Part shown: piece after piece, positions 6,801 to 54,700 of the stretch
Position numbering within the stretch: the first letter of the stretch is position 1
Layout of the letters: each line of letters opens with the position of its first letter
Assembly: GCA_021014325.1 (NCBI GenBank)
Contig: CM037461.1
Location: forward strand, 2,629,501 to 2,693,500
Source of the DNA: Plazaster borealis
Lineage: Eukaryota; Echinodermata; Asteroidea; Forcipulatida; Labidiasteridae
Length of the DNA stretch: 64,000 nt
Direction of reading: 5' to 3'
Translations under genes and position numbers: made by a program
Notes under the pieces: generated by a model
Told to the model about the DNA's origin: nothing
The model's input: the letters and a program-made list of their open reading frames with translations, nothing else
The model's database searches: none

Positions 6801-9800
6801 ACGCTCGTGGCTGAGCCCACGGCCTTGTGTTACAATATCAGACAATATCAGACACTTCATCGTTCATCGTGATTTCTGACAGTACTCAAAAATAATATTT
6901 CAGCTTCGGATAAAGGATTTATCTAAATATTGTCGTTTACTGGGCATTCAAAGTATAAAATACTTTTTAAACAATAAAAAAACCCCCAAAAAACAAAAAA
7001 ACAACCAATAACAAGGGGCAATAACAAGTTTTTTTTTTATGCCTTACCAGGGATGAGATTTCTCCGTTTTTAACCGGAAATCCTTTTTTGCTGCCCCCCC
7101 CTCACTAAAAAGAAATCCGAAATCATAAAAAATGAAGATAAAATCATATATAACACCCAATAATTGCAGAGTAGGGCTTTTAAAACCAAAGATAAATGTT
7201 ATTAGTGGGCTTCGTGCTCGCAGGTTTTTGAGCTCGCAAGCTTTCGCGTTTTGCACTCAGTGTTCAGGTTTTTTTCCAACAGCCTATCACATCGAGTTGT
7301 TTAAGTCTTGCCTTAAGACACATCTGTTCAAACAGTATTTTTGTAACATTGCAACTTATTGAAAGGTTTGTATCTAGTATTCATTTTCTACAACTATTTT
7401 TAACTAGTTCATCTTTTTAGCTTACTGTGTATTTGGCTGGTCAAGACGTAATTTTGTGTACAATTGTTTAATTATCGTTGTTTTTAATTTATTTATGTTG
7501 TTTAAAGGTATCGTACACGCTTGGTAATGACTCAAAACAAATATTAGCATAAAAACTTACTTGGTAACAAGCAACGGAGAGCTGTTGATAGTATAAAACA
7601 TTGTAGGAAACGACTCCCTCTGAAGTAACGTAGTTTTTGAGAAAGAGGTAATTTCTCACTAAAATAATAAAAACTTCGTGCAAGAAGTATTCCTATCTGA
7701 AAGCACACAAATTGGTACAACAAGGGTGTTTTTTCTTTCATCATTTTCTTGCAACTTCGATGACCAATTGAGCCCAAATTTTCACAGGTTTGTTATTATA
7801 TGCATATGATGGGATACACCAAGTGAGAACACTGGTCTGTGACAATTACCAAACGTGTACGATGCCTTTAATCCATTTTTGCTTGTGTTCAGCGCCTTGA
7901 GGTGGAACCGATCTGCAACTGTTTGCTGTTTATAAATCTCTCTTTATTATTATTATTATTATCCCTGCTTTACTTATTAATCTTACTAGTAATCTCTTGT
8001 TACCTTTAGCAGCTGCACAAGGTGGAGGCTCGATGGGTCGCGGTAGGGGTCGAATGAGCAGAGATATGGAGCTGATTGGTCAGACTGTCAGAATATCCCA
8101 AGGTCCATACAAAGGTGAGGCACCAGACTAGAACACTTCAGTTTAATACATATGCGCAGCAACCTCGTTCCAAGGGGTAATCGATCTCGCGGCGCCATTT
8201 TTCCCAGCATGCCTTGCTCGCTCATAACCCCTGGAATCAATTAATTCAAATGTGCTACAAGTGCTCAAAAGTTTTTAATAAGCGTGCACACAAAGTAGTC
8301 ACTTTTGGTAGCAAATTAGCCTTGTTTTTCAGTTTATCCCTTTCAGGGGTGAGTGACGAGAGGTATCGAAACGGCGCGCTGCCCATGGTAGCGAGGCATA
8401 TATATGTAGACATTCTTGAGGTTTTGACCCTCGACCCCCAAACGCTGTTACTCTCTACCACCGATGATTAAGTCATCTAGGTGTGGGTTCGATTCCTGGT
8501 CGTGACACTTGTGTCCTTGAGCAAGTTACTTTACTGTAATTGCTTCTCTTCACCCAGAGGTATAAATGGGTACCTGCAAGGGTAGAGGTTGATATTATGT
8601 TTGAAGAAGCCTTCGGAGCGCCACGGCAGCCCGGGGCTGTATACTCCCCAGGGAGCTGAGAAAGATTAAAGGAATGTTATTGGCCCAATGACCAGGGCAC
8701 CAATGTAAAGCACATTGATACATTAATGTAAAATGCGCTATATAAGAACTAGTTATTATTATTATATTGTGTTTGAAAAGCTTCTGAGCGCTACGGCAGC
8801 TCGGGCTGTATACTCCCCAGGGAGCTGAGAAAGAGTAAAGGAATGTTATTGTCCCAATGACCAGGGCACTAATGTAAAAGCGCGATGATACGTTATTGTA
8901 AAATGTGCTATATAGGAACTAGTTATGATTATTATTATTATAGTTCATAGATTGCAAGATGAGAAAATCTTGTTTGATTAACTCCTCTGCCCTTGACTTC
9001 TAGGTCACATTGGAATCGTGAAGGACGCCACTGACTCTACGGCCAGAGTAGAGCTCCATGCTATGTTTAGAACCATTAGCGTCGACAAAAACAGACTCAA
9101 CAAAGTAGGGTAAGTCGTCGAATTAAAACCTGGAGAACAAGAGACCTGGTTTTACAAGACCAAAATTGAAACGAGAAAAATATATATATACACAGTTTAA
9201 CTGTTGACCTGTTTTAATTTGAATAAGCACTAAGAGAAGATTGATCTCATATGTATTTATGGGTAAGTATTGTTCAATACTCAACAGAATTGAAAGATAT
9301 TTATCAGACTGAAAGTACAAGACGGCTGGACTTGTCCGGCCATGAGTTTACCGGCCCGATCCTATAATCACTGGCCTCGGGCCTGTGATCTAGTGTAAAA
9401 AAGATATCACGTGGCATTTCCATTTCCTACCTCTCGCCCAGGAAGTAGTATTAAAATAAGCAGGACAGTTCTTTTCAGAACTAAGTTGTCACTCGAATTC
9501 CGAAATCTACTCCGCAGCAGTAGAATAAATAGCAAGAAACCTTCTCTGAGAACAACTCTAGAGCTGCTTAAGCAGAGAATCGTGCTTAACAATATTCTGC
9601 TAAGCAAAAACAAGCAGGAATACCAGTCACAAATTGTACATGTGACATGGAAGTTTGACTGGTAACCTTATTCTGGTAAGCATAATTTGGTTTTGCTCGG
9701 CTACTTTTTGTGCTTAAGCAGCTCTATGACACTGGTCCCTGGTCTGTACTTGATTTTGTTTCATATTTTGTTTCAGAGGACAAATCAGGACCGGAGCTAC

Positions 9801-12800
9801 AACAGCCTACGGCCGAACGCCAATGTATGGCTCCCAGACTCCCATGTACGGCAGTTCGGGTTCAAAGACACCGGTCTATGGGTCACAGACTCCTCTGCAT
9901 GATGGTAAGTCAATGGAAAGTTGTCGGGAAAAAGTCAGTGGGAACAAAAGCAACGACTCAGCTTCGAAATACCCTTAAAGGGTGTGTACAACATTGGTAA
10001 GGTTGAAAATATAAATGTTTACAGATTTGCACATAACCTACATGGTATGGTCATGGTGGAAAACGTCCCTTGAAATAGTTTTGCTTAAAATGCTATGGTT
10101 TTTAGGAAATGAGTAAAACAATTAGTCTTTATCATTGGTGATAAAATTTGAAATCACACTACTCGCATGATGTATGACCTAATTAGTTATGCACACATAT
10201 AGAACAGTCTGTCATGCGCAGTAGTTAACACATTAAATGTATGTAATTAATAGGCCCAGGTTTTCACCCCATAGGTTTAGAGTAAAACCCGAAGAATAGT
10301 CTAATGCAACACGTGATTAAACATCGAACAATGTCATGAGGTCGGATCTATTATGGAAACATTTGCGGTTGCGGTCTCTTTGTTGTTACAAGATCGTCTC
10401 CACTAGGAGATGCATCGCGATACTTACAATATCGTGATTTTCGGATATCACGATCAAAATAAAATCGAGCCGATATCGTAATCGTTTCAGAACTAGTATT
10501 GCGATATTCGATAATATCGTGGTATCGCCCAAGCTTACTTCAAGTCAGCTGCCTTGAAAATCCAATAATAATTTTTATAAATTTGTGTTGATTACAGGCA
10601 ATAGGACTCCACATTACGGTTCAGCGACCCCATTGCATGATGGGAGTCAGACACCGGGTCGGTCCGGAGCGTGGGATCCGACGGTCACCAACACACCCAG
10701 CAGGTAAAGCTTTGTCTAAGGTTTAAAGAGGGGCTTCAATGTCAAATGCAGTTTTGTGATGCACTCATTTTTTCAATAGATAGAGTCCTCATGGAAAAAT
10801 TACAATCTCTAACCTCCTTAAAATGGTGAAAAATTTCATTTTATTTGATACTCTGAAATTTGAAATTAGAAACGTGACATCATCAAAAACAAATCGGTCT
10901 GTACATTTCAAGAGGAATTTTTGTGCCGGTTAAAATGTCAAGTCCAATGCTGTTTTGATTGAATATCATCAATATTCAGGAATGAACTAAAAATTCTCCG
11001 TTTAAAAATTTACTGACCATATAATTGAAATTTGTTTCCAATTGTATTTCTTCTCTCTTTATTAAAGGCACTGAACACGTTTGGAAATTGTCAAAGACCA
11101 GTGTTCTCACTTGGTATATCCCAACATACATGTATGCATAAAATAACAAGCCTGTGGAAATTTGGGCTCAATTGGTCATCGAAGTTGCAAGAAAATTATG
11201 AAAGAAAAAACACCCTTGTTGTACAAATTTGTGTGCTTTCAGATAGGAATAAAAGGCTTCAGGCCTGAAGTCTTTCATTATTTTAGTGAGAAATTACCTC
11301 TCTCTCAAAAACTACGTTACTTCAGAGGGAGTCGTTTCTCACAATGTTTTATACTATCAACAGCTCTCCGTTGCTCGTTACCAAGTAAGTTTTTATGCTA
11401 ATATATATTTTGAGCGTGTACAGTGCAGTTAACCTTTGATCCCTGTTGGTGTTTTCAGGTCCAGTGATTATGACTTCAGCTACGATGAAGCCTCCCCATC
11501 CCCCCAGCCTTACGGTACTACCCCCAACCCAGCCACCCCAGGCTACGGCTCTGAGACACCCCCTAGTAACGGCCCCTACACCCCGGCTACTCCAGGTAGC
11601 TCCTCTGGGATGTACGGCAGCGAGTCAACGTACTCGCCTTATCAACCTACTCCATCACCTGGAAACTATCAACGTATGTCTGACCTCCCCATACTATTAT
11701 CAGGGTTCTTGCCATGCACAAGCTAGCGTATCAGGCCGATACGCGTGATTTGCGTTCCGATACGCGCATTTCCGTCGATACGCGTTTCACAAGAAACATC
11801 AAGAGAAAACCATGTAGAATGCTCCAGATTGCACACAAGGACTTTTAAATCCAAGATAAACACATAATATAAAACTTCAGAAGATCTGGTTTCAATTCAG
11901 CGTGCTTCGGCTAAACTTCAAAAATTGGGTCTAGAATGCCCCTCAGTTTTGAAAAAACCTGGGGAGAACCCCGATTATTAAGTTCTGTTAAAGTTTTCCC
12001 CTCTATTGTAGTGCCTTATAGTTTGGAAATAAACGATAAACCTGAGCCTGAATTCAGCGTGCTTATTACTATGGTGAAATAATAAATATTATTTATCCCT
12101 GATGCAATCTATTAAATCAGAAAACTATTAAATAAGAAAATTTGTTTTTTTGCCTTACAATATTTGACTCTTTTTCCCTCCGTAGCCACACCCAGCCCAT
12201 CTTCAAGCTCCTTCCAGCAGGCACCCAGCCCAGGCAGCTACCAACCCACCCCGTCCCCGGCGAGCTACCAACCCACCCCATCACCAGGGAGCTACCAGGC
12301 CACCCCGAGCCCCGTTGGGTTCCCGATGACGCCCGGCGCACCCTCCCCGCTGGGTTTCAACCCACAGACCCCCGGGGGCGCCGGGGGTGGGGTGGACTCT
12401 GGCCTGATGGAGTGGCAGGCGACGGACATCGAGGTCAAGATCATGTCTCATGAGGACAAATCACTGGTGCAAAAGACGGCTGTTATTCGGAGCATCACGG
12501 TGAGTTCAAGGTTCAAGGTTCATTTAAATTCCACAGTATAAAAAAAGACATTATTACTCAAAAGAGATCAGTATAAAGAATACAACTTTAAGATCTTGTC
12601 TCATGAGGATAAATCACTGGCGCAGAAGACGGCTGTTATTCGGAGCATCACGGTGAGTTCAAGGTTCAAAGTTCATTTATTTTCCACAGTATCAAAAAAA
12701 GAAGAAGACATTATCACTCAAAGAGATCAGTATAAAGAATACAACTTTAAGGTCATGTATCATGAGGATAAATCACTGGTGCAGAAGACGGCTGTGATTC

Positions 12801-30700: not shown

Positions 30701-33700
30701 GGCTTCACAACCAGAATTAATAAATGAATGAAATGAAATGAAATGAATTACTCCATGGCTTACAGCATACAGAGTTTCTTGAACGATTAAAAAAAAGCGC
30801 CCTCATGAAGAGCTTACCAGACAGTCTCCAGGGCAGGGTTTATCACAGCGATGAGACGTGTGGATATCTAAGAGAGTCTCATTCACACTGGATAGGACCT
30901 GATTCAGAACACCATGTCTGTTTGCATCAGGATAATCTAAAATCGCAAAACAAAAATAACATGTATTTATTTCGACACTAGTTGCACAAGTCGCCCAGGC
31001 CTACTACAGACCTACCTACTCTAACCTTTTTGGTCAGTTATGCCGAAAACATCTCATTACTTTGATTAGGCCTGATCACTATTGACTGCCGGCGTGTCGT
31101 GGCCATGCGGATAAGAGCACCGGACTCAAGCTCTGGTGTTTCTGCTCAGCAGAGTGTGGGTTCGAGTGCCGGTCGTGACACCTGTGTCCTTAAGCAAGAC
31201 ACTTAACCATTAATGCTTCTCTTCACCCAGGAGTACAAATGGGTACTGGCGAGAGCTGGGGAGTAACCTGTGATGGACTGGCATCCTGTCCAGGGGGAAT
31301 ATCAATATTCTCAGTTGTTTAATGCCAAGGAAATCGGATATAAACACAGGCCTGATGAGCCATATTGGCTCGGGACAGATTTTACTTTACTATTGCCTGC
31401 TAGGAAGACCTACTACGAGGTCAAAGTTTAAAGGTCATCACCTTGGAGGATGCAGTACTCATGATCGACAGTGAGTCCATCGTTGCGTTCGCACTCAACG
31501 AGGCGTGTCTGCTCGCCGATCCCACAACCTCGTTCCGTCTCAAATCTGCACTCACTCCAGAAGCTCCGATTCCAGGTGTAGGTGTGGCAGGGCACCGCAT
31601 TGCACGGCTTAGTCTGGTGCCGAGTACAAAATATTAGGAGTGCAAATATTATTATTATATATTTCTGTTTAACATCTATTAAATGGTTGCGGTACCCACT
31701 GCTAAAACATAGGATTCGAACTGCCTCTAGCGACCGGGCTAGCTCGGTGGTCTAGTGGTAAGACATCTGCTCTTGCAATGCAAAGGTCGTGGGTTTGAAT
31801 CTCACCTGAGAGGTTTAGTCTGGTGGTGAGTACAAAATGTTAGGAGTGCAAATATTAATACTATTATATATTTCTGTTTAACATCTATTAAATTGTACCC
31901 GCTGCTTACACATAGGATTTGAACTGCCTCTAGCGACCGGGCTAGCTCGGTGGTCTAGTGGTAAGACATCTGCTCTTGCAATGCAAAGGTCGTGGGTTTG
32001 AATCTCACCTGAGAGGTTTAGTCTGGTGCCGAGTACAAAATATTAGGAGTGCAAGTATTTTTATTATTATTATATATTTCTGTTTAACATCTATGAAATT
32101 GTTGCGGTATCTGCTGCTAAAACATAGGATTCGAACTGCCTCTAGCCACCGATGGTCTAGTGGTAAGACATCTGCTCTTGCAATGCAAAGGTCGTGGGTT
32201 TGAATCTCACCTGAAAGGTTTAGTCTGGTGGTGAGTACAAATTATTAGGAGTGCAAATATTAATATTATTATAAATTTCTGTTTACCATCTATTAAATTG
32301 TTGCGGTACCTGCTGCTTAAACATAGGATTCGAACTGCCTCTAGCCACCGGGCTAGCTCGATGGTTTAGTGGTAAGACATCTGCTCTTGTAATGCAAAGG
32401 TCGTGGGTTCAAATCTCACCTGAGTGATTGGCCTGTGGATTTTTTTTCACAGAACTCAGGAAAGTACTGAGTATACAGTGCTCAATAAACATCAGTGTAA
32501 CACAAATTATATTATATATTTCTAGTAATGAAACCAAGGATACCTCATAAGTGAACTTAATCATTGTAGCTCTCAAGCCTGAGGAATCCTGTAAACAAGG
32601 GTGCTTGCTATGTGAACCAGAAACACCGGGGTTAACCCCTACTCTTCCACGATAAGTGTTCTGGGTTCTTTCCCGTGCACTACCAACCCTAGTACACGGG
32701 ACCTACAGCTTAATGTCTCATCCTAAGGACAAGGTAATTATTTTAAAGTATCTTGCTCAATGATGCAAGTGTCATGAAACACCAGAACTTGAGTCTGGTG
32801 CTCTTAAGAGTGTCAGTCTGAAAGCTCAGTGATTATATATTTCTGGTAATGAAACCAAGGATGCCTCATTAGTGAACTTAATCACTGTAGCTCGCAAGCC
32901 CGAGGAAACCTGTAAACAAGGGTGCTTGCAATAAACCAGTAACACTGGGGTTAACCACGATAAGTGTTCTGGGTTCTTTTACGTGCACTACCAATGCTAG
33001 AACACGGGACCTACGGCTTAATGTCCCATGACGAAGCAATAATGGTTACGTGTCTTGCTCAATAACACATGTGCCACAACCGACGGTTGGGTTGGTGTAG
33101 TGGTATCTTTCCTCGCCTTCCACCTCTAGGACCCAGGTTCGAATCCCACTGGGGTCACTATGTGGATTGGGTTTTCAGTCCCTACATGTACCTGTGTGAG
33201 TTTTCCCTGGAGTATTTCTCTGGGGTTTTCCTCCCACATCTAAAACTGAATTTTCCTTCTTTGTCTTCTCTCAATTGGGTTCTTGGCTTTGTATAGTGAT
33301 TAAGTTCGCTTTTCGGAGAGTCCTTGGCTTCACAACCAGAATTAATAAATGAAATGAAATGAAAACCGGGACTCAAATCGATTTTCAAAATGGGAACCAG
33401 ACTATGTTCCCTTCCAGCCTCAGTTTGGTTGCATTAGTTTGAATGGAAATAACAAAGATGGCCGCACCATCTTCTTCTTTCATGTCCTTACACTGTGGAC
33501 ATCCACTGATGTACACACTTTTGTGCCCGTGGGGTCAGCCTTGCTACCATGGGCAGCGCGCCGTATCAATACTTCTTGTCACTAACCCCTGGTAGGGATG
33601 TACTGAGAAAAAACGCTGATTGGCTCTCAAGGGTGACTACTTTGCATTGCACGCTTGTGAAAAACATTTGAGCGCTTGTATGGCGCGTGTAAAAATGAAA

Positions 33701-36700
33701 GTATTTTGACGCGATTCCTTTTCAAATGAATCATGTTTTAGCACGGTCACCCTAAACTGCATACAGTTAGACTTATCACATGATCAAAGAAGAATGAGAG
33801 GGAACCAGTTGCTCTTAAACTTGATGCCCTTTTGCGAAAGAGAGAAACACAACAACTTTACAAATTTACAAATTTATCTTTCCTCATACCTGCCTCTGGG
33901 TCCACTTCGCGGAGCACTCCACCGACTGACCCTCAATGACCCTCGACCTCACCATGACCCCATGCAACCCACAGGTCGCATTGCAGACTGACCAATCGGA
34001 GTATCTCTTTGGTTCACAGTTTGGTGGGCAGGGGATATGGCATAGATCTGTGGTTGTAATGTTCTGGTCGGGGCAGTGATGCGTGGCAACCGAGAAGCCA
34101 TTGTCGTTGATGCAGTTGGTGATGCGGTGTCTCGTCCCTGCAAATTAATTCACATTCCTAGATGTAAATTGTTGTATGCATTACGTGACACTCCTAAAAG
34201 TAGCTGAGCACCAACAATTATGCTTACCAGAATAAGGTTACCAGCCAAAGCACCATGTCAAATGTACAATCGATGACTGGTATCCTGGTTATTTTTGCTT
34301 AGCAGAAAGAAGCAGATCTATGAAATTGGGCCCATGTTAGTTATTAGGCAGTGTCAAAAGTAGCGGCTGAGATTGCAGCTTGAAGATAGACTCTTTGCAA
34401 AACTCTAAGCAATGCAGCTGTAGCCGCAGCCATAGCCATAACCGCAGCAGGTCAAAGCCGTAATCGCAGCAGGTCAAAGTCGTAACAGCAGCAGGTCAAA
34501 GTCGTAACAGCAGCAGGACACAGCTATAGCCGCAGCTGGTCACAGCCGTAACTGCAGCAGGTCACAGCCGTAACCGCAGCAGGTCACAGCCGTAACCGCA
34601 GCAGGTCAAAGCCGTAACTGCAGTAGGTCTAAGTCGTAACCGCAGCAGGTCAAAGCTGTAACTGCAGCCGGTCACAGCCGTAGCCACAGCCAGTCACAGC
34701 CGCAACCACAGGCCACAGCTGTAACCGCAGCAGGTCACAGCCATAGCCGCAGCCGGTCACAGCCGTACCTGCAGCAGGTCACAGCCGTAACCGCAGCAGG
34801 TCACAGCCGTAACCGCAGCAGGGCAAAGCCGTAACCGCAGCAGGTCAAAGCCGTAACCACAGCAGGTCAAAGCCATAACCGCAGCAGGTCAAAGCCGTAA
34901 CCGCAGCAGGTCAAAGCCGTAACCGCAGCAGGTCACAGCCGTAACTGCAGCAGATCACAGCCATACAACCGCAGCAGGTCACAGTTGTAACTGCAGCAGG
35001 TCACAGCCGTACAACCGCAGCAGGCACAGTTGTAACCGCAGGTCACAGCCGTACAACCACAGCAGGTCACAGTCGTAACTGCATCAGGTCACAGCCGTAC
35101 AACCACAGCAGGTCACAGTCGTAACTGCATCAGGTCACAGCCGTACAACCGCAGCAGGTCACAGCCGTACAACCGCAGCAGGTCACAGTCGTAACCGCAG
35201 CAGGTCACAGCCATAACCGCAGCAAGTCACAGCTGAAGCTGCAGCCTGTCACAGTTGTAGCCATAGCTGGTCACAGCAGTAACCGCAGCAGGTCACAGCC
35301 GTAACCGCAGCAGGTCACAGCCGTAACCGCAGCAGGTCACAGCCATAACTGCAGCAGGTCACAGCTGTAACTGCAGCTGATCACTGCCTTATTCTCCTAG
35401 TACTGTTTACCTGAGCCACATTCACCACTGATAGCCTTGCAACGACTCCACTCGCCGGTAACCAGCCGGTAGCCAGACCCCACACAATCAGAATCAGTGC
35501 AGGGTGTGGTTTGAGTCAGATCCCCACACTGTTCACCGGTAGTCGTTGGGTGGCGGATTACCGAGCGCACTTGGGATTTTGTGCTGTTCCGTTGACAGGG
35601 GGTGGGGCAGGGAGAGCTGTTCTGCCAATTGCTCATCACGCAGTCACCTGGTTTAAAGCCAAAGTTATTTTGTAGGATTTGATACATTGATATTTGTTAT
35701 TAATATTTCAAAATTCAAATAATTTTCATGTTAACAAAGTATCTATGTTTCTAAAACAAAACCAAATTTCTGTTTTAAATTATTGTGTTCAGACACTTTT
35801 ACAAGAAAATGTTGTTTCAAAAAAATCTAAAATTAAACTGTTTTTTGGCATATGATGATGATTCTACAGATATAAATGGTCTCTAAAGGGTTAAAAAAAA
35901 TCGATAAAAAGAGGAATAAACCAATTAATGAAATAATTACAATGGGATTACATCTTGACTTAAAGGCACTGAACACGTTTGGAAATTGTCAAAGACCAGT
36001 GTTGTCACTTGGTGTATCCCAACATATGCATAAAATAACAAGCCAGTGAAAATTTGGGCTCAATTGCTCATCGAAGTTGCAAGAAAATGATGATAGAAAA
36101 AACACAAATTTGTGTGCTTTCAGATAGGAATAAAAACCTCTTGCAAGAAGTTTTTATTATTTTAGTGAGAAATTTCCTCTTTCTCAAAAACTGCGTTACT
36201 TCAGAGGGAGTCGTTTCCTACAATGTTTTATACTATCAACAGCTCTCCGTTGCTTGTTACCAAGTAAGTTTTTATGCTAATATTTGTTTTGAGTCATTAC
36301 CAAACGTGTACGATACCTTTAAAAAAAAAAAAAAACAAGACCCTGAACCTACCTGGACACGGTAAGACACAATTCCTGCTGGTGTCAGGATGTGGAAACC
36401 GTTTGGCACATTCCAGCTCATAGCTCTCCCCTGCCTTGCATGAGACCGTCCGGACTTGTGCACCGCGGCCGCAGTTGCTCCGTGGGTCGATAACTTCACA
36501 AGACCCCCACTAAAGATCAAATAAAAATATACAAACAGTTAAAAACCACATCGTGTTAAAAGACCACGTTACCCGAGGGCATCCCTGGACATTTTTGAAA
36601 ACAGGTTTATCCCACTTCTGTTTGTTTGTTCGTAAATGTTATACATTTCTTTTTGTGTTAACTGGTTAAGGGTAACAACAAATCAATATTATATAAAAGA

Positions 36701-39700: not shown

Positions 39701-42700
39701 TGTGAAAGGACAAAAATGTTTGGACTGTCAAAGGTCTCTAGTGAAATCTTCTCAACTTTGCCGTCCGTTATGGACAGTCTAAACATTGTTGTTCTTTCAC
39801 ACAAGGTGCATTTGGTAAAATTTTGCAACCATGCTCAAATTAAGCAAGGGACCCTTGTTAAATTGCTGTCGTGTGAAAAGGGCTTAATCCTCTTACTGTT
39901 TTTTTGTTATTGTTATGATGATTCTCTGTTGGAGTGGAAATGAAATGTTTTGAAACGAACTGAAATGAAACGAACCTTCGATAAGAAGACAGCTCTGCCA
40001 TGGGCCTTCTTGCCAGTCATAAGTGAAGTTTGGATCATCGCAAGGCTCGTACCTCATCAAGTCACTGCTGGTGATGTGTGGACACAACTCTTCTGCATCA
40101 TCTGTGGCTGGATCTGCAATTCAATTTCAATTAATGGTAGGGTCATAGATTGGTTTTTGTCGACGTACATGTAAGGCCACACAAAAAATAATTGTTGATC
40201 GTCCCTGCCCAACCCTACAAAACCCCCTGACGCCATTTACTTAGGCTACACTGCATTTTAGTTTTTTAAATGCCTACAGAAAATGTCATCTAGAAGTTAA
40301 ATGGGTTTAACAAAACAATTAAAAACATCAAAATCATACAAACCCTCTGTATAGTGATTGTGATGATCTCTTTATTCTTTATTTCATATTTTGCCATGTC
40401 AAAAAACCAAAACGAAAAAAGAGCCCACCCCCCCCCCCCCAAAAAGGATGAAAAACAATGTTTTTGTTATGTGGCTAATGCTGATTTATAGGCAACGTTA
40501 TCAAGAAAGATACAACAAAAGTCACATGTGAAAATTTCACCTGAATACAGTGTCTACTTGCAGAGAAAACAGGTATGGGCAGTATACAGAATTGGGGAAA
40601 GTGTGAATCTTACTGACGGAGTGGGACTGGGGCCCAAGTCAATAGGAGGAAAATACTAAATGAAAAAAATTATGAAACTATAACAATGCTAGGCGAAATG
40701 AATCTGGCGATGGAACTGTTAAATGTAATTTAAGGCATTGCATGGTGAAGTATCAATGTTTATTCGGTTTGCGGTAACGCCATGTGTATATATCTACTTT
40801 GCTGTGTAGATTTTGTTCTTTGAGAACTTGTCTTGCTATTTATTTTACTGCCACAGAGTAGATTTAGAAATTCGGGAGACTACTTAGTTCTGAAAAGAAC
40901 TGCCCTGCTTATTAACTACTACCTTGGGGAGGTAGGAAATCGGCCAGTACTACTACTTTTGCTTAGTGGAACTGTTAAATTTACCAATACTAATGATAGC
41001 ACTAGACTGCATCCTACAGTAACCACTATGAGCTGTCAGACCAAAGCAGTGAAACTTACCAATACTAATGATAGCCCTAGCAGTGAAACTTACCAATACT
41101 AATGATAGCCCTAGACTGCACATGCAGTAAACACTATACTACTGATAGCCCTGACTGCATCCCTACAGTAACACTACCAGCTGTCAAGACCAGAGCGACT
41201 GCATCCTACAGTAACCACTATGAGCTGTCAGACCACAGCAGTGAAACTTACCAATACTAATGATAGCCCTAGACTGCATCCTACAGTAACCACTATGAGC
41301 TGTCAGACCACAGCAGTGAAACTTACCAATACTAATGATAGCCCTAGACTGCATCCTACAGTAACCACTATGAGCTGTCAGACCACAGCAGTGAAACTTA
41401 CCAATACTAATGATAGCCCTAGACTGCATCCTACAGTAACCACTATGAGCTGTCAGACCACAGCAGTGAAACTTACCAATACTAATGATAGCACTAGACT
41501 GCATCCTACAGTAACCACTATGAGCTGTCAGACCACAGCAGTGAAACTTACCAATACTAATGATAGCCCTAGACTGCATCCTACAGTAACCACTATGAGC
41601 TGTCAGACCACAGCAGTGAAACTTACCAATACTAATGATAGGCCTAGACTGCATCCTACAGTAACCACTATGAGCTGTCAGACCACAGCAGTGAAACTTA
41701 CCAATACTAATGATAGCCCTAGACTGCATCCTACAGTAACCACTATGAGCTGTCAGACCACAGCAGTGAAACTTACCAATACTAATGATAGCTGCATCCT
41801 ACAGTAACCACTATGAGCTGTCAGACCACAGCAGTGAAACTTACCAATACTAATGATAGCCCTGGACTGCATCCTACAGTAACCACTATGAGCTGTCAGA
41901 CCACAGCAGTGAAACTTACCAATACTAATGATAGCCCTAGACTGCATCCTACAGTAACCACTATGAGCTGTCAGACCACAGCAGTGAAACTTACCAATAC
42001 TAATGATAGGCCTAGACTGCATCCTACAGTAACCACTATGAGCTGTCAGACCACAGCAGTGAAACTTACCAATACTAATGATAGGCCTAGACTGCATCCT
42101 ACAGTAACCACTATGAGCTGTCAGACCACAGCAGTGAAACTTACCAATACTAATGATAGCCCTAGACTGCATCCTACAGTAACCACTATGAGCTGTCAGA
42201 CCACAGCAGTGAAACTTACCAATACTAATGATAGGCCTAGACTGCATCCTACAGTAACCACTATGAGCTGTCAGACCACAGCAGTGAAACTTACCAATAC
42301 TAATGATAGCCCTAGACTGCATCCTACAGTAACCACTATGAGCTGTCAGACCACAGCAGTGAAACTTACCAATACTAATGATAGCACTAGACTGCATCCT
42401 ACAGTAACCACTATGAGCTGTCAGACCACAGCAGTGAAACTTACCAATACTAATGATAGCACTAGACTGCATCCTACAGTAACCACTATGAGCTGTCAGA
42501 CCACAGCAGTGAAACTTACCAATACTAATGATAGCACTAGACTGCATCCTACAGTAACCACTATGAGCTGTCAGACTACAGCAGTGAAACTTACCAATAC
42601 TAATGATAGGCCTAGACTGCATCCTACAGTAACCACTATGAGCTGTCAGACCACAGCAGTGAAACTTACCAATACTAATGATAGGCCTAGACTGCATCCT

Positions 42701-45700
42701 ACAGTAACCACTATGAGCTGTCAGACCACAGCAGTGAAACTTACCAATACTAATGATAGGCCTAGACTGCATCCTACAGTAACCACTATGAGCTGTCAGA
42801 CCACAGCAGTGAAACTTACCAATACTAATGATAGCCCTAGACTGCATCATGCAGTAACCACTATGAGCTGTCAGACCACAGCAGTGAAACTTACCAATAC
42901 TAATGATAGCCCTAGACTGCATCCTACAGTAACCACTATGAGCTGTCAGACCACAGCAGTGAAACTTACCAATACTAATGATAGCACTAGACTGCATCCT
43001 ACAGTAACCACTATGAGCTGTCAGACCACAGCAGTGAAACTTACCAATACTAATGATAGCCCTAGACTGCATCCTACAGTAACCACTATGAGCTGTCAGA
43101 CCACAGCAGTGAAACTTACCAATACTAATGATAGCACTAGACTGCATCCTACAGTAACCACTATGAGCTGTCAGACCACAGCAGTGAAACTTACCAATAC
43201 TAATGATAGCCCTAGACTGCATCCTACAGTAACCACTATGAGCTGTCAGACCACAGCAGTGAAACTTACCAATACTAATGATAGCCCTGGACTGCATCCT
43301 ACAGTAACCAGTATGAGCTGTCAGACCACAGCAGTGAAACTTACCAATACTAATGATAGCCCTGGACTGCATCCTACAGTAACCACTATGAGCTGTCAGA
43401 CCACAGCAGTGAAACTTACCAATACTAATGATAGCCCTGGACTGCATCCTACAGTAACCAGTATGAGCTGTCAGACCGCAGCTGTGGACGCATGGGCCAA
43501 AGACAGACCAGTCTGAGAGCAGGCAGTCCCCTGCACATGGCAAGATGCACTGCTGATGGGATGGGGGTGGGATTGACAGCACCTCGCGTACACAGACACC
43601 TGTGGGTGGAAATTAGTATTTTATTCTTATAGTAATATTATTAATAATAATGTATATTTGGCTTGCGGTAACACCATGTGTATATCTACTTTACTGTGTA
43701 GATTTTTGTTCTTTGAGAACTTGTCTTGCTATATTCTACTGCCACAGAGTAGATTTCAAAATTGGAGAAACTATTCTACTGCCGCAGAGTAGATTTTTCG
43801 GAATTCGGGAGAGTACCAAGTTCTGAGAAGAACTGTCCTGCTTCTTAACTACTACCTGGGCGGAAGGTAGGAAATCGGTTGGGACTACTACTTTCGCTTA
43901 GTGGATCTGGGGGGACTTCTCATTATTTACTTCACTGCCGCGGAGTGAGTTCTTAATTGGTCTCAACACTTTGATTAGCTTGCTCTAGTCATCGTCAGGA
44001 GTTCTCAAAGAACAAAAATCTACACAGCAAAGTAGATATACACATGGTGTTACTGCAAGCCAAATATACAATAATAGTAACAATAATAATAACAATAATA
44101 AATAATCATTACGTGAATCACCCATTAAAAGCAGACCAGAGTTTGCCTATGACAAACTCAAGTCAGTACTCACCGGTTTGGGAAAAGAGCAATTTTCAAC
44201 ACAATATTTCTTAATAGATGTTATGTTTGCATCGGGGGGTTTGAACCAACGACCTCCGGATTATTGTGCTGGCGCTCTACCAACTGAGCTGTCTAGCCCT
44301 ATGTTGGCAGTCTCCCTATTTTGTCAATACCTTTGTTCGGGGGTGCCAGTCAGAAGCCATACAACCTTAAACTGCCATGTTGCCAGGGATCACACCCAAG
44401 TTTACAATAAACCACAAGGGAAACTGGGTAAATTAACAATAATTTGGGGTTGAACAAAGAAAAATTGACTAGAGCAGGATTTGAACCAAAGACCTCTGGA
44501 TTAACGTGCCGGCACTCTACCAACTGAGCTTTCTAGCCCTATGTTGCGGTCTCCCTATTTTTTGAATAGTATACAATTAAAACTCTTCTCATAAAAAAAT
44601 AACATTACACAGAAATCTTCACTTTACCCGGTTCAACGGTTGTTCCGTCGCTCCTCCCACAATGCACCTCCCTCGTCTGTAGTCCTTTACCGCAATCTAT
44701 ACCGAATATCTCACACGCACTCCAGTTCCCAGCATTCCATTGGTAGCTGTAGCAGGGTGGGAGATTGTCACATGACTCCATTTTAAAAAGTACACCTGCG
44801 GGAAAAAAAATAGCGGTTATTTGTACTGTGTCTCTATTAAAGGTATCGCACACGTTTGGTAATGACTCTGATAATTAATGGCAATAAAAACTTACTTGGT
44901 AAGAAGTACAGCATCTTTGGATGGTATAATGCATTTTGAAAAACTTGTCACTTAGAAGTACTGTGGTTATGAAAAAATATATCACTTTTTATACCCCAAA
45001 ACATTTGAATCTGAGAAGTGTTTTGCATAACGCTTCTCAGAGTGTGTTTTCCAATGCACATTATTCTTCGTGCGTGGACATAATTATAACGGCTCCAGAT
45101 TTTCGGCAATATCTCAAAAACGCTACCACCTTTTGAAATGAAATTTTCACAGGTTAGTTTTATGGTATATATCTACAACTATATAGGTTTGAAACAAACA
45201 AGTGGCTCCAGTTACCAAACGTGTACGATGCCTTTAAGGAATTAAAGGTTTAAAGCTAATTTTATAATAATAATAATACATGTAATATCAACTCTTATAA
45301 AGCGCAATTCCAAAGAGTGATTATCGTGCTTTGAACATTATTACCCCTGGTCACTGGGCCATTTATTTCATTCCTTAAACCATCTCAGCTCCCTGGGGAG
45401 TATACAGCCTGTGCTGCCAAGTAATGCAGCGCACTAAGCTAAATCAATCACAAGAACAATCTCTGCCCTCGCAGGTACCCATTTATCCCTGGGTGAAGAG
45501 AAGCAATTGTAGCTAAGTGTCGTGCTCAAGGACACAAGTGTCATGACCGGGATTCAAACCCACACCCTGATGACTCGGCAACCAGAACTTGAATCCGATG
45601 CAATAAAACCGCTCAGTCATGACACGCCACGATTTTCTAATTTAATAGTTTTCTAATTTAATACAATGCATCAGGGATCAAGAATATTAATCATTTCACC

Positions 45701-48700
45701 ATAGTAATAAGCAAGCTGAGTTCAGGCTCAGGTTTATGGCTTATTTGCATTAAAGTTTAAACCATGATTATCTTTCAGGGAGCTGAGAAAGATTACAGCA
45801 ATGTTATTGGCCCAATGACCAGGGCACTAATGTAAAGCACATTGATACGTTATTGTAAAATGCGCTATAAGAACTAGTTATTATTATTATTATTATTAAG
45901 AGGGAGAAAAAGTAATTAATTGGTGAAAAAGGCAGACTAAAAAGGAGAATATCTGTGGAAAAAGGATAAGGCAAAGACAAAAGGTTATTCAAATCAATTA
46001 CCGTCTTCATTGGCTTCACTCGGGCACGAAGCGCCACCGTTTGCAGAGAGTTGAACAATTCTTTGAGAGCGTATCCTTTGTCCGTCCACACCACAGGTCT
46101 GACTGCACTCAGAGAGGGCACTCCAAGGAGACAGCTTGCAGTCCACTGCGCAAGGAACCTCACAAGAACGGACCCTGGCCGGCTTGGAAGAAGGATCGCA
46201 GAAACTCTCATCTTGTGCTACGCCTTCAATAAAAGTATTAATTCGGGGTTGAACATAGACAAATTTACTCAAGCCAGGGCCAAATTTCATAGAGTTGCTT
46301 AAAGGCACTGGACACGTTTGGTAATTACTCAAAATATATATTAATAATAATAATAATAAATCTTATAAAGCGCTGGTATCTAGAAAAAACTATTCACTGC
46401 GCTATATGACCAAGGGAAAATTAATGGTAGGCTTGACTGAAGAGGTAAGTTTTGAGATTAGCATATAAAAACTTACATGGTAATATGCAACAGAGAGCTG
46501 TTGATAGTATAAAACATTGTGAGAAACGACTCCCTCTGAAGTAACGTAGTTTTTGAGAAAGAGGTAATTTCTCACTACAATATTTGAAACTGAAAAAGAC
46601 TTCAAGCCTGAAGCCTTTCTAAGGCATCTGAAAACAGGGTTTTTTTTTGTTTCATTATTTTCTTGCAACTTTGATGACCAATTGAGCCCAAATTTTCACA
46701 GGCTTGTTATTTTATGCATATGTTGGGATACACAGAGTGAGAATACTGGTCTTCGACAATTACCAAAAGTGTCCAGTGCCATTAAGCACAAAAAGTAGCC
46801 AAGAACAACAAAATTATGCTTACCAGAATATGGTTACCAGCCAAAATATCAGGTCACATGTACAATTTGTGACTGGTATCCTGCTAATTTTTGGTAAGCA
46901 CAAAAAATGGAAGCAAAATTGTCTGCTTGAGCAGCTCTATAAAAAATGGGCCCAGGTTTGAACTGCAATCTCTTATTAATGTGCCGGCGCTCTACCAACT
47001 GAGTTATTTACAGGTAGCTCGTAGCTCTGCATACCTTGCTGGAAAAAAGTACTGAGCACTTTGATACAACCATCGGGTGTGATAAAGCGCTATATAAGAA
47101 CTCAGTATTAGTATTATTATGGCAGATAATCGGCAGTGGCTTACGGCCAACGTTTGCTTCATTGTAAATCATGTACAAATTCAGCTTTGGGCTTGCGATT
47201 CTTGGCAGAAATAAACCAATATGAAATTAAAGATAATTTGTTTTTACCCTTACACCGATGTGTATGAAGCACTGTATACTCAGTACTTTCCCCGAGCTCT
47301 GTGAAAAAAATCCACAGGCAAATCACTCGGGTGGGATTCGAACCCACGACCTTTGCATTGCTAGTGCAGATGTCTTACCACTAAACCATCGAGCTAGCCC
47401 GGTGGCAAGAGGCAGTTTGAATCCTATGTTTAAGCAGCGGGTACCTCAATGATTTAATAGATGTTAATTTTACATCGGGGATGAAGAATATAGACGATGT
47501 GACCTTGTTTACATTCAAACCGCCCTCTGTTAACAAAACACTGTCCAAGTCATGTTCCGCTGGGCAAGAAGACGCATACTCATGGTAAGATTGCGTGTAC
47601 TTTCTAGCTGGCTGTCAAGTACACAAAGGTTTTGCCCGGCGACATGCGCACGCATCATGTTATGGTTTTCAAGTGACGTCAGAGGTCACATCGTCTATAG
47701 TGTAAGGGTAAAAACAAATTATATTCTTTATGAAATGAAATGAAATATGAAAAACATTTTGATAGTTTGGACTCACCTGATTCTTTCTCACATGAAATCA
47801 CTCTGTATTGGACGCCAGCATTCTGGTCACAATCCCCTGCAGACGTTCCATTCACTGAGCACTCGCCCCACGCTCCTACCTGCCAGGTATAGGTCTGACA
47901 TGAGAGGTGAAGATTACATGGTCTGTATTGGCTCAGCTCAGTCTCAGGGAGGCAAGAATCCTCTTCAAGATCGGAATAGGCTGCAGGGAGGAAGGTTGAA
48001 GGAGAAATTTTTCATTGGTAAACATAAAGTAGTTTTTTTGATTTAATGTTTTCTGTAGTTATGTACTTTTTTACACGTGACCCCCAGGGCCCCATGGGAG
48101 AACAGTTCTTTGATAACTGATGGGGCTACCCTGGTTAATTAAAAGGAAAAAAAAAAAAAAAAAAAAAAAAATAATAATAATAATAATAATAATTAAACAA
48201 AGTTCATTAAACTTGAAATCAGTATTGGCAAGGTTTAATGAGTCGGTCTGTTTCTCTCCAATAAGCCACTTCCAAGTTAGATTTGAATAATGTCTGGTGC
48301 AATGATTTGCTTGATCACAAGTTACCGCTTAAATTTGAATTCCTCAGACTATAGAGACAGTCGCTACATTACATGATTCGTGGCAAGCTTTTGCGTGGTT
48401 ACGTAAGAGACGGCTCAATGGTTTCTGAGCCTTTAAGGTTAATGCGCTTAGAAACACCAGTATTAAGCGCTATATAAATGTTATTACTAATATTGTATAT
48501 TTGGCTTGTGGTAACACGATGTGTATAAATACTTTGCTGTGTAGATTTTTGTTCTTTGAGAACTTGTCTTGCTATATTCTACTGCCACAGAGTAGAATTC
48601 AAAATTGGAGAAACTATTCTACTGCCGCAGAGTAGATTTTCGGAATTCGGGAGACTACCAAATTCTGAAAAGAACTTTCCTCTTCTTAACTACTACCTGG

Positions 48701-51700
48701 GCGGAAGGTAGGAAATCGGTCGGGATTACTACTTTCGCTTGGTGGATCAGAGGGACTTCTCATTATTAACTTCACTGCCGTGGAGTGAATTCTTAATTGG
48801 TCTCAACGTTTCGACTAGCTTGCTCTAGTCATCGTCAGGAGACTGATCAAGTTATATATTTTCCAGCCAGATAGTGGAGACAATTTTGAACGGCATTCTA
48901 ACACTGCTTTAATAAAATGTGCTTCAGTAAAAATAATATCATGCTGTTCTGACAATGACGAGAGCAGGCTAGTCGAAACGTTGAGACCCTTTAAGAACTC
49001 ACTCAACGTTTCGACTACTGTAGCCTGCTCTCGTCATTGTCAGGAGACTGAAGAGTTTTTTAGATGCTTGTCTCTTTATAAGGATTCAGAGGTTTCAGTG
49101 TAGAGTCAGTCACTGCTCTGACTGGATCTTCTGAAAGAATTATTATTTAATTATTATTATTATTCAGTTTTCATGATTTTTGGTGCTATATAAATACTGT
49201 ATTATTATTATTATTACCAAGAATCTGTCTGCTTCTCATCTGCTGGCCACCTTTCTTGCCACATGTCTTGGAACAGGGACCCCAGTCAGACCACTCAGAG
49301 ATGACGCAGTCCGTTGGGCAAGGAATCTTACACGTCTCCTGCCAGGGTGGCTCTACACCTGGACAGAACTCGTCGTCTACCAGCTCGTCGAGGGCGCTCA
49401 TACAGTAGAGAACACGTGCATGGACGCCAGAGCCGCAGTCTGTCATGCCGTGGTTGAGCTTACAGCTGGTCCATCTTGCTGTAGTGTTAAAAGTAGAGTC
49501 AATTCTAAGTGATGTTTTAAAGCTTTGCATGGTGTGGAAAATAAGAAGCAACTATAACTAGTAATCTTGTGGGTACAACCATGATAATAATAATAAACCA
49601 TACTTATAGCGCCTCACACATTATGTCCTGAAGCGCTTTACAAAAGAAATGAGTCATAAATTAATTAAAGAGGTATGTTTTTAACATAGGTTTTTATTTG
49701 GAGCAGTTTTGATGAAGTTTGGCAAATTGTTCCACAATGTCGGTGAAGAGTGTGAGCACGAGCAATGGCCATATGATTTAGTTTGAGTGATGTATGGGAC
49801 GAGTTGAGAAGTAGAGCTGGAGCGGAGGGTACGACGAGGTTGGTATGAATAATAATAATAATAATAATGCAGTTCTTATATAGCGCTTTATAATCCCGAA
49901 GGGTGTCTCAAAGCGCTCAGTATTTTTCCTACAAGGTAAGTGGAGTTACATGTTGAAGTATGAGACCTATTCCTTTGCATAGCACCATGTAATGGTTTAC
50001 AAGGTGCTGTGGCGCAATATGCAGCCAACCAAACCAGGAACACTGGGGCGAACCCCTTCTCTTTACGATAAGTGCACTGGGTTCTTTTACGTGCATTACA
50101 CAACACACGGGACCTACGGCTTAATGTCCCATCCGAAGGACGAAGCATGTGGTTAAGTGTCTTGCTTAAGGACACAAGTGTCACGACTGGGATTCGAACC
50201 CACACTCTGCTGATCAGAAACACCAGAGCTTGAATTCGGTGTTCTTATCCGCTCGGCCACGACACGCCAATGAATGAAGGGAACTTGTCAGCTCAGTCCA
50301 GTCAAATTCTTGCTCATCCACATACTGGTAGCACCTTTATCCAGGGTGAAGTCACTCTTAAAACAGCATTAAACATGAGCAGATTTACCTCATGGTGCGA
50401 CATCCTAATTGCAGTTTTTGTGTGAATCTCTTATGGGAGGAGTGTTGGCTCTGAGAAGAGCTGATGTGGTCTCAACGTTTCGAACAGTATACTCTGCTCG
50501 TTTCTCCTGAAGACAAGCAGAGTTTACTGTTTGAAATGTTGAGATCCCACCGGCTCTTCTCAGAGCTAACACTCCTACCAAAAGTGATTTGCACATTTCA
50601 GTGTCGGACCAGTAAACTCAAGACAGGATAACTCGGATGGTCTTGTTTTTTTCAATTCAACATCTTTGTCTCAAAAGAATGATGTTCAATTGTTGAGTTT
50701 GAGTCTCACTATTATCATTCAACCCTTCTGATTATCACCCATAAAACAGAAGAGATAAATCTTCTCTCGGTGTTTGTTCAAACAAAACAGTTTAGATGAT
50801 AAAACTGTGTTCTCATTTTGATTCTAGTTTCCTCTCATTTTGATTCTGATCTTGTAAATAAAATCCCAGTCCAGTAAAAATTCTAAGCTACAAGTTTTGC
50901 AGTCTTGTGGATATCTCCCCCTAATTCGAGCCCTGGTGACGATAAATGGACAAGTGAGAATTTGGATCTCGATCATGAATATGTATGAGGTATAGTATAG
51001 TAACCACGATCATGAATATGTATGAGGTATAGTATAGTAACCACGATCATGAATATGTATGAGGTATAGTAAGAGAAAATAACACAACAGGGCCCAATTT
51101 CATAGAGGTGCTTAAGCAGAAAATATTGCTTAACAATTTTCTGCTAAGCAGAAATGAGCAGGAAACCAGTCACAAGTTGTACATTAGGCCAAATAAAATA
51201 AAAAACATGTTTAGCGTCCTGCCTTTTTGAAAAAAGGAAGGAGGAGGGCCTTTTTTTTTTTTTTTTTTTTTTTAAAAAATGCCCCCCCAAAAATTTTTTT
51301 GTAAAAAATGCCGGGCGATTTTTAAAGATGGTGGCCAGCTTTTTTTGTTGTGCTTTTTTCGCTGTGCTAAAGTCGAAAATACGATCTTATTTATTAAAAA
51401 AAAGTCAGGGATAATAAAAACTTATCATTTTTTTCTTTCAAAAAAAAAAGAAAAAAAAAAAAAAAAAAGGAGGCGGCCTCTAAAAAGGAAGCGGGCGGGG
51501 ACGCTAAACATGTTTTTTTATTTATTTGGCCTTACATGTGACATGCTAGTTTGGCTGGTAACCTTATTCTGGTAAGCATAATTTTATTGTACTTAGGTAG
51601 TTTTTGTGCTTAAGCAGCTCTATGAAATTGGGCCCTGTTCTATTCTTACAGGTATGCCACCAAGCACACTCCACAAACTCGCACTCTTTAGCTTCCGCTG

Positions 51701-54700
51701 ATGGTCCACACTCCTCCCCGCCGAACGCAGGAGCCACTAGGACTTCTCTGGTACGTATCTGGACACCCTCCTCGCAGCTCTTGGAGCAAGGAGACCAGTT
51801 CTGCCATTGACCAAGCTGGCAGTCAACGGGGCAGTCCACCCAGCAGGCTCTCTTCATCGGAGGCTGGTGGAGTGAGGAATTGACGGCTGAGGAAAGAAAA
51901 GCAATTTTTGTACTGTGAGATGCAGAACTTAAAAAAACCTTTTTATTGGGCTGGATAGGGGGAGATGTTCTCCATTCTATTTTTAAATAAGAGAATAAAA
52001 GGTTGTTTAGAGGCACTGAACATGTTTGGTAATTGTCAAAGACCAGTGTTCTCACTTGGTGTATCCCAACATATGCATAAATAACAAGCCTGTGAAAATT
52101 TGGGTTCAATTGGTCATTAAAGTTGCAAGAAAATGATGAAAGAAAAAAGACCCTTGTTGTACAAATTTGTGTGCTTTCAGATAGGAATAAAATCTTCTTG
52201 CAAGAAGTTTTTATTATTTTAGTAAGAAATTACCTCTTTCTCAAAAACTACGTTACTTCAGAGGGTGTCGTTTCCTAGAATGTTTTATACTGTCAACAGC
52301 TCTCCGTTGCTTGTTACCAAGTAAGTTTTTACGCATTACCGAACGTGTACGATACCTTTAAATACGGTGAGGCACGGTTCTTGATAATTTAACGAGACGA
52401 AGTTGTCTTGGTAAAAAATTATCAAGAACCTCACCGGTTTTAAACAACTAGTTTAAAACCGATTCAACACACTTTGATTCCCATTCATAAACACCTTTCC
52501 AGGAAAAACCCTTTTTAGCCTCAGCTCACCTCAGCTCTGCTTTGAATTTCTTAACACCAGGCATGTGAGCGGGTCATGCAAAACGTGTCCGAATTTTGGG
52601 CCAGCGCTACAGTCAGGAACAATAGAGATCAATGGGTACCACACACATCGCAATTAAAGTGCTTCCCGATGCCAGGTTCCCCTTCTCTGTGTGAGTGTTG
52701 CGCAGTAAAAATACTTGCTGCTCGATTGGAGGTGAAAAAAAGGAAAACAATCGAGGGCCGGCCACTCATGGCGGAGACGGGAAAAAAGCGGAGCCCACAA
52801 GAAAAATGCGGAATGGGAAATTAAAAAAACGCAGATTGCCTGGTACACGTGTTGAGCGCTGAGTAGCTCCTCCCACAAGTTTTGAACTTGTGCGCGTAAG
52901 TTTCAAACTATCGCATGCAAGTTTAAAGTGTCTTGCCAAATACGCAACTGACCAACTTAAATAGGGCCGTAAAATTTGGCACTCCGCCCAATCATCTAAT
53001 AGCGCCCTCTTTTGACTCAATAAGGTCAGGTCATGTTTAATAACTTCTAATTGTGTTTATATCACACGTTTAAACATGGCCATGTGATCTCCTTTTGACC
53101 AATCAGAATAGTTAAACTGTCTCAGGTATTTATGAATGGTCTATAAATAGGCAGAAAATGCACTAAGACTTCTTTGAAAATCTCTGCTCTTGTTTTGGGA
53201 GCTATTTGTGTGTGTTGGGGGGGGGAGGATTAGGGGCAGTGCTTTGGAGCCTGCCTGAAAACAACTGTTTGACTTTAAGTGAAGTGAAACGATTTGTTTG
53301 ACCCACCTGACCCCACCCAGTGTAAATATTCATGGATCTGCCCCTGGAATGGTGAAATACAATCTCTATACTATCTGGAAGACTGTGGGATTCTAGAAGT
53401 TTGTTTATATCCCTTGGTATATGACTAGTATATTGAGATAAGCATTGCCAGTTGACCTGGCAGCAGCCAACTGTTACCGTATGGTTAAAATGTCCCAAGG
53501 GGACTTTGGTGTGTGTCAAGGTTAAGGACACAAGTGTCATGACCAGGACTCGAACCCACATTCTGCTGATCAGAAACACAAGAGCTCGAGTCCGGCGTGC
53601 TTGACCGCTCGGCCACGATACGCCACCGTGTATCTCCTCTTGTTTTGGGAGCTACTTACGTGAAGTGATGCAAGCCTCCTCACTGACAGGGATGTAACCG
53701 TCATCTCCTTCCTGAACACAATAAACTTGACGTCTCTGTCTTCCGGCTCCACACAGACCCTCGTTGTCATGTGTTAACGTACACAGCTGCCACTCCTGAT
53801 GGATAAGGGAAAAACGGTGTGGAAAATTATTTTGAACTAGAAACAGATACTGAATAAGACTTTTATTATAGCATAATAAAAAATTTGTGGTGACACCATT
53901 TAGTTAGATCTCTTTTGAGTGAGTGGTGGTTCTGAGAAGAACCGATGGACTCAACATTTCAGACAGTATACTCTGTCCGTCGTCAGTACATGGTGTCACT
54001 GCAAATTTCTTATGTTAAACAAATACTGACAACATTAAAGGCATCGTACACGTTTGGAAATTGTCAAAGACCAGTGTTCTCACTTAGTGTATCCCAACAT
54101 ATTCATAAAATAACAAGCCTGTGAAAATTTGGGCTCAATTGGTCTTCGAAGTTGCAAGAAAATGATGAAAGAAAAACACCCTTGTTGTACAATTCTTGCT
54201 TTCAGATAGGAATAAAAACTTCTTGCAAGAATTTTTTATTATTTTAGTGAGAAATTACCTCTTTCTCAAAAACTACGTTACTTCAGCGAGAGTCGTTTCA
54301 TACAATGTTTTATACTATCAACAGCTCTCCGTTGCTTGTTACCAAGTAAGTCTTTATGCTAATATTTGTTTTGAGTCATTACCAAACGTGTACGATACCT
54401 TTAATGAAGATGCGGTAAGACCATGTGTATATATCTACTTTGCCCTTTGCTGTGTAGATTTGTTCTTTGAGAACTTGTCTTGCTATTTATTCTACTGCCG
54501 CGGAGACAACTTAGTTATGAAAAGAACTGGCCTGCTTATTAACTACTATCTGGGCGGGAGGTAGGAAATCGGGCGGGACTACTACTTTCGCTATGTGGAT
54601 CGAGGGGACTTCTCAAAATGAAATCACTGGCCTCTGGCCAGTGGTTCAGTGTAAAATTTGAGCCCTGGATATGATACGGGCCATGCAGTTTAGGTTTGTA

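Follow-up and report, generated by a model that had tools for sequence, protein, structure and literature searches.

The window, the whole 64,000-nucleotide stretch of Plazaster borealis DNA that was analyzed, carries most of a THSD7 orthologue on its minus strand. With the joined exon translations as query, the top three of 133 protein matches were the THSD7-like proteins of Patiria miniata, Asterias rubens, and Acanthaster planci, and identity over the aligned query was 58% to Patiria and 72% to A. rubens; the host gene is an orthologue of THSD7A/THSD7B. By tblastn, Patiria residues 194 to 1531 were matched in order from 60654 to 24553 (-), through 20 collinear matches retained by a greedy filter, supplemented by two from the unfiltered list, at 40114 and 24738. 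The partial A. rubens protein gave 12 filtered matches, ten of them 84-95% identical and the other two 75% and 69%, values that point to a probable relative of Asterias. The gene has the architecture of THSD7, in which TSP1 exons in collinear order precede a transmembrane segment and a cytoplasmic tail.

One of these exons, 180 nt long, is 93% identical to A. rubens across 60 residues and lies between introns of 1028 and 3306 nt (Table 1). A tandem array of ~2.3 kb adjoins this exon and includes the exon's own donor, whose core is repeated across the units. Each 75-bp unit consists of the 3' end of the exon (43599-43420), the donor TTG/GTAAGT (the slash marks the exon-intron boundary), and ~10 nt of intron. 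TRF reported 75 bp x 30.6 copies with 98% matches at 41197-43486, and remnants reach 40985. A unit-by-unit parse, which cut at every GGTAA[AG]TTT and leaves sites without this core uncounted, put the last base of the exon at 43420 in the donor context TTG/GTAAGTTTC. It returned 33 sites in total, of which 32 are GTAAGTTT donors (the exon's own and 31 more) and the final one is a decayed GTAAATTT. The repetition of exon end plus donor in 75-bp steps, which an earlier note on this DNA had described, is therefore borne out by both TRF and the parse. The array extends past the previously given limit of 41753: seven more intact 75-bp units follow, and then units of 158, 34, and 75 bp down to 40985; by eye, the 158-bp unit looks like two units, one of them minus its donor.

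Table 1. Exons, donor, and array segments of the THSD7 locus, in window positions.
Feature	Position	Strand	Evidence
Preceding THSD7 coding exon (TSP1 domain)	44628..44795	-	tblastn to A. rubens and Patiria THSD7; AG/GT flanks
Exon of 180 nt (phase 1-1), source of the array through its 3' end	43420..43599	-	acceptor CCACCCACAG, donor TTG/GTAAGT
Exon's own canonical donor GTAAGT	43414..43419	-	junction to 40113 reads IISI-DPATDD, as in asteroid orthologues
Copies 1-21, each exactly 75 bp and open in the frame of the exon, TTG then GTAAGTTT in phase	41845..43419	-	unit parse
Copy 22, 68 bp, 7-bp deletion	41777..41844	-	unit parse
Seven more intact 75-bp copies, out of frame	41252..41776	-	TRF and unit parse
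Degenerate tail, units of 158, 34, and 75 bp, decayed donor GTAAATTT at end	40985..41251	-	unit parse
Next exon, 138 nt, in-frame length	39976..40113	-	tblastn to Patiria THSD7; splice sites; common acceptor AG 40114-40115

The exon's donor and those of the 21 following copies are in phase. Copy 22 has lost 7 bp, which closes the frame and leaves the donor after this copy (41777) and all later donors out of phase. Thus, the proposal that some 22 units stay open with every donor in the same phase, and that splicing from any of them to the 138-nt exon would be in frame, holds for the first 21 extra donors and fails from copy 22 on. Copies 1-21 translate as GKFHCCGLTAHSGYCRMQSRAIISI with small changes, and the count of three Cys per 25-residue unit was correct. 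An open unit with a length divisible by three is not improbable, as the chance for a 75-bp unit is ~0.28 when roughly estimated as 1/3 multiplied by the probability that four junction codons are all non-stop. On the opposite strand, the array is open for 574 codons in one frame (41792-43513, +), probably as a by-product of the unit length.

The copies match the exon from unit position ~9-13 onward, so the intron-derived part of a unit is about 8-12 nt, rather than the ~15 nt previously given, and the founder duplication would have comprised 63-67 nt of exon end plus ~10 nt of intron. Compared with the exon, all 29 full-length copies are changed at unit positions 12 and 17, 28 of the 29 at position 34, and 26 of the 29 at position 56, and only eight unit types occur among them. 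These shared changes and the small number of unit types fit growth of the array from one already diverged copy better than repeated copying off the exon. It is hardly credible that the real array is shorter and its copy number was inflated in assembly: tandem arrays are hard to assemble, but here the eight unit types come in mixed order and not as block repetition, there are unique indel units, and the window is free of N.

At the protein level, the exon end CGLTAHTGYCRMQSRAIISI agrees with A. rubens at 20 of 20 residues, while the copies drift, with S changed to C in 29/29 full-length copies and T to S in 28/29. Eight sites vary among the full-length copies, six of them residue-changing and two silent when read by codon position (five and two, respectively, in the 21 in-frame copies), a split that is about the expectation under no constraint. 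Copy variation thus carries no sign of amino-acid constraint. A search for conservation of or constraint on an inserted peptide was negative, given the 6/8 residue-changing sites, the frameshift in copy 22, and the lack of an insert in 13/13 homologue alignments listed in full. The donor core is invariant over 21 copies; this does not show selection on it, because with eight variable sites per 75 nt a 9-nt core would stay free of changes with a chance of 0.34, and the parse itself demanded the core.

A splice from the first donor to the acceptor at 40114-40115 would produce ...RAIISI-DPATDDAEELCP, which matches RAIISI-DPVTDNAEELCP of A. rubens and also Patiria. The junction was compared in 30 of the 120 homologue proteins listed, and all 13 alignments listed in full cross it with no insert of more than ~4 residues, these proteins being database entries, mostly predictions, from which rare isoforms may be missing. 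A search for proteins carrying the repeat covered proteins of about 565-1799 residues and scored the 7994 candidates sharing most words; none of these carried it, in a search that had no positive control and in which one-unit THSD7 homologues were also not among the matches listed. In the literature, no sea-star paper on tandem repeats or minisatellites was among the matches listed.

Minisatellites that contain a splice donor are known from two human genes. The minisatellite of IFI6 (6-16, G1P3) has a 12-bp unit. It was reportedly described by Turri et al. in 1995, and two of its downstream repeat donors are reported as used (PMC4526556). The intron-18 VNTR of ABCA7 has a 25-bp unit, takes in the exon-18 donor, and ranges from about 12 to 427 units in people; one-unit retention amounts to 2 +/- 1% independent of VNTR length, whereas skipping of the next exon increases with VNTR length and is strongest for alleles of ~4.5-10 kb (PMC5954066). 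Since retention of one unit breaks the frame and makes the product a target of nonsense-mediated decay, the 2% understates its use. The array in P. borealis resembles the ABCA7 repeat in lying right behind an exon and containing that exon's donor, and the IFI6 minisatellite in offering several donors at an exon end, so it belongs to a kind that is already known. It differs from both in its unit: that of IFI6 is short, and that of ABCA7 begins at the donor GT and shifts the frame when one unit is retained, whereas here the unit has 75 bp, is mostly exon-derived, and is in frame. The in-frame unit with ~65 nt of coding sequence is what distinguishes this array. Use of downstream donors is documented in IFI6 and, at a low level, in ABCA7; in the present array it would be a possibility.

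Published competition between donors bears on which donor would be chosen (PMC9225289). Minigenes that offered two identical strong donors between 365-nt introns spliced exclusively from the upstream one, and among human donors of similar strength the upstream one is preferred under exon definition; when no strength filter is applied, most human events in each of the four intron classes favor the downstream donor (PMC9225289). With 1028 and 3306 nt, the introns flanking the present exon are likewise long, as in the minigenes. The minigene competition, the homologue junction, and the ABCA7 data together suggest that the first donor most likely dominates here. RNA folding does not set the first donor apart: its predicted local accessibility is 0.033, against an average of 0.041 over the 28 donors that follow.

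In our judgment, the repeated donors are unlikely to work as alternative donors whose THSD7 isoforms would form a ladder, each with n x 25 Cys-rich residues inserted into one TSP1 domain and with lengths that are polymorphic among animals. The 21 extra in-phase donors and the open frame speak for such a ladder, as does the reported use of two downstream repeat units as donors in IFI6 transcripts (PMC4526556), and in-frame products would evade nonsense-mediated decay. On the other hand, the frame is broken at copy 22, the 13 fully listed homologue alignments and the 7994 scored candidates (in that uncontrolled search) gave no insert and no repeat protein, and the three Cys added per unit leave an odd number for every odd n. 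One inserted unit also reduces the TSP1_spondin match from profile positions 1-41 (19.6 bits) to 1-28 (15.4 bits), both scores being under the Pfam cut-off of 41. Structure prediction gave no support either: AlphaFold2 modeled the exon plus four units with a mean pLDDT of 71.4, and a Foldseek search of this model against the PDB found no match at E <= 0.001. The antisense open frame of the array, which corresponds to no known gene, reached a pLDDT of 86.5, so model confidence says little here, and the predicted structure of the insert was rejected as evidence because this control scored higher.

The evidence also speaks against the insert being a designed peptide. Given the homologue junctions, the drift of the copies, the shortened TSP1 match, and the success of upstream donors in published competition, the splice-variable Cys-rich insert suggested in the earlier note is possible but unsupported, and we regard as quite unlikely a THSD7 ladder that runs over 22 identical donors and yields an insert varying in length between cells and individuals. 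If it were true, this receptor-like protein would carry a Cys-rich insert encoded by a VNTR whose extent is selected by splicing, with codons and splice signal both provided by the repeated unit.

The earlier note also raised a decoy-donor role, and the array might instead disturb splicing, with many strong U1 sites competing, so that THSD7 output is lowered or a neighboring exon is skipped to an extent that scales with array length. The length-dependent skipping in ABCA7 provides a precedent (PMC5954066), and both neighboring exons (180 and 138 nt) are divisible by three, so that skipping would keep the frame. However, the ABCA7 effects are reported as strongest for alleles of ~4.5-10 kb (PMC5954066), while the array here measures ~2.3 kb, and we consider such a disturbance very unlikely.

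The array is probably a passive intronic minisatellite, with the exon's own donor doing nearly all of the splicing. A local tandem duplication would have taken the last 63-67 nt of the THSD7 exon, its donor, and ~10 nt of intron, and slippage or unequal exchange may then have enlarged it to a 30-copy intronic minisatellite in the asteriid-like lineage, presumably as a neutral change. The protein would be spared because the original exon end and donor remain first in line. As the 180-nt exon would be recognized as a whole, together with its own acceptor, almost every transcript would be spliced from the first donor, and the array would be removed with the intron. The next one or two donors would contribute a minor by-product only, and rare isoforms with +25 or +50 residues in frame are possible.

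Several points count against a passive array. Its 21 copies are open in frame with an invariant donor core, and two downstream repeat donors are reported as used in IFI6 (PMC4526556). Most human events, taken without a strength filter, favor the downstream donor (PMC9225289), and the predicted accessibility of the first donor is no different from that of the others. Finally, the 2% retention in ABCA7 understates donor use, whereas an in-frame product of the present array would escape removal.

The surroundings of the array are rich in repeats. Within THSD7, two arrays span an exon boundary (41197-43486 and 31609-32424), compared with 0.63 expected at random (P of at least two = 0.12), an estimate based on five arrays in the gene of at least ~3 copies and 200 bp and on approximate exon ends, with the overlapping TRF rows at 57944-58705 merged into one and shorter rows left out. 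An enrichment of arrays at exon ends is not claimed, given this P value and the location of a further example, the SPT5 array, in another gene. The array at 31609-32424 (-), 203-bp x4, repeats the acceptor and the first ~8 bases of the THSD7 exon from ~31613 (CACCAG/ACTAA), and its unit also holds a tRNA-like stretch. At 12437-13079 (+), an exon of SPT5 (SUPT5H) has its 3' end and donor, ATCACG/GTGAGTTC, present four times at spacings of 153, 159, and 165 bp, all multiples of three, with an in-frame stop in the first interval. A 22-bp x43 array at 34434-35388 starts ~22 nt into the intron past the donor at 35410.

Dispersed repeats occur as well. Inverted-repeat, MITE-like copies at 43640-44070 and 40755-40974 (the latter partial), in the same orientation, bracket the 180-nt exon and its array, and further copies or pieces of this element lie at 48483-48841, 1655-1932, 54411-54615, and 9422-9555. 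The intron that precedes the 180-nt exon holds, at 44220-44550, two tRNA-like (SINE-like) copies ~240 bp apart, which were recognized by eye and not reported by ARAGORN.

Exon-end duplications look like an ordinary outcome in such a minisatellite-rich region, and they would be tolerated because the copy beside the real exon stays intact. An exon end can thus be multiplied, presumably harmlessly, provided that its first copy stays intact. With 22 in-phase donors in near-identical context facing one acceptor, the THSD7 locus of this sea star offers a natural test bench for splice-site choice.
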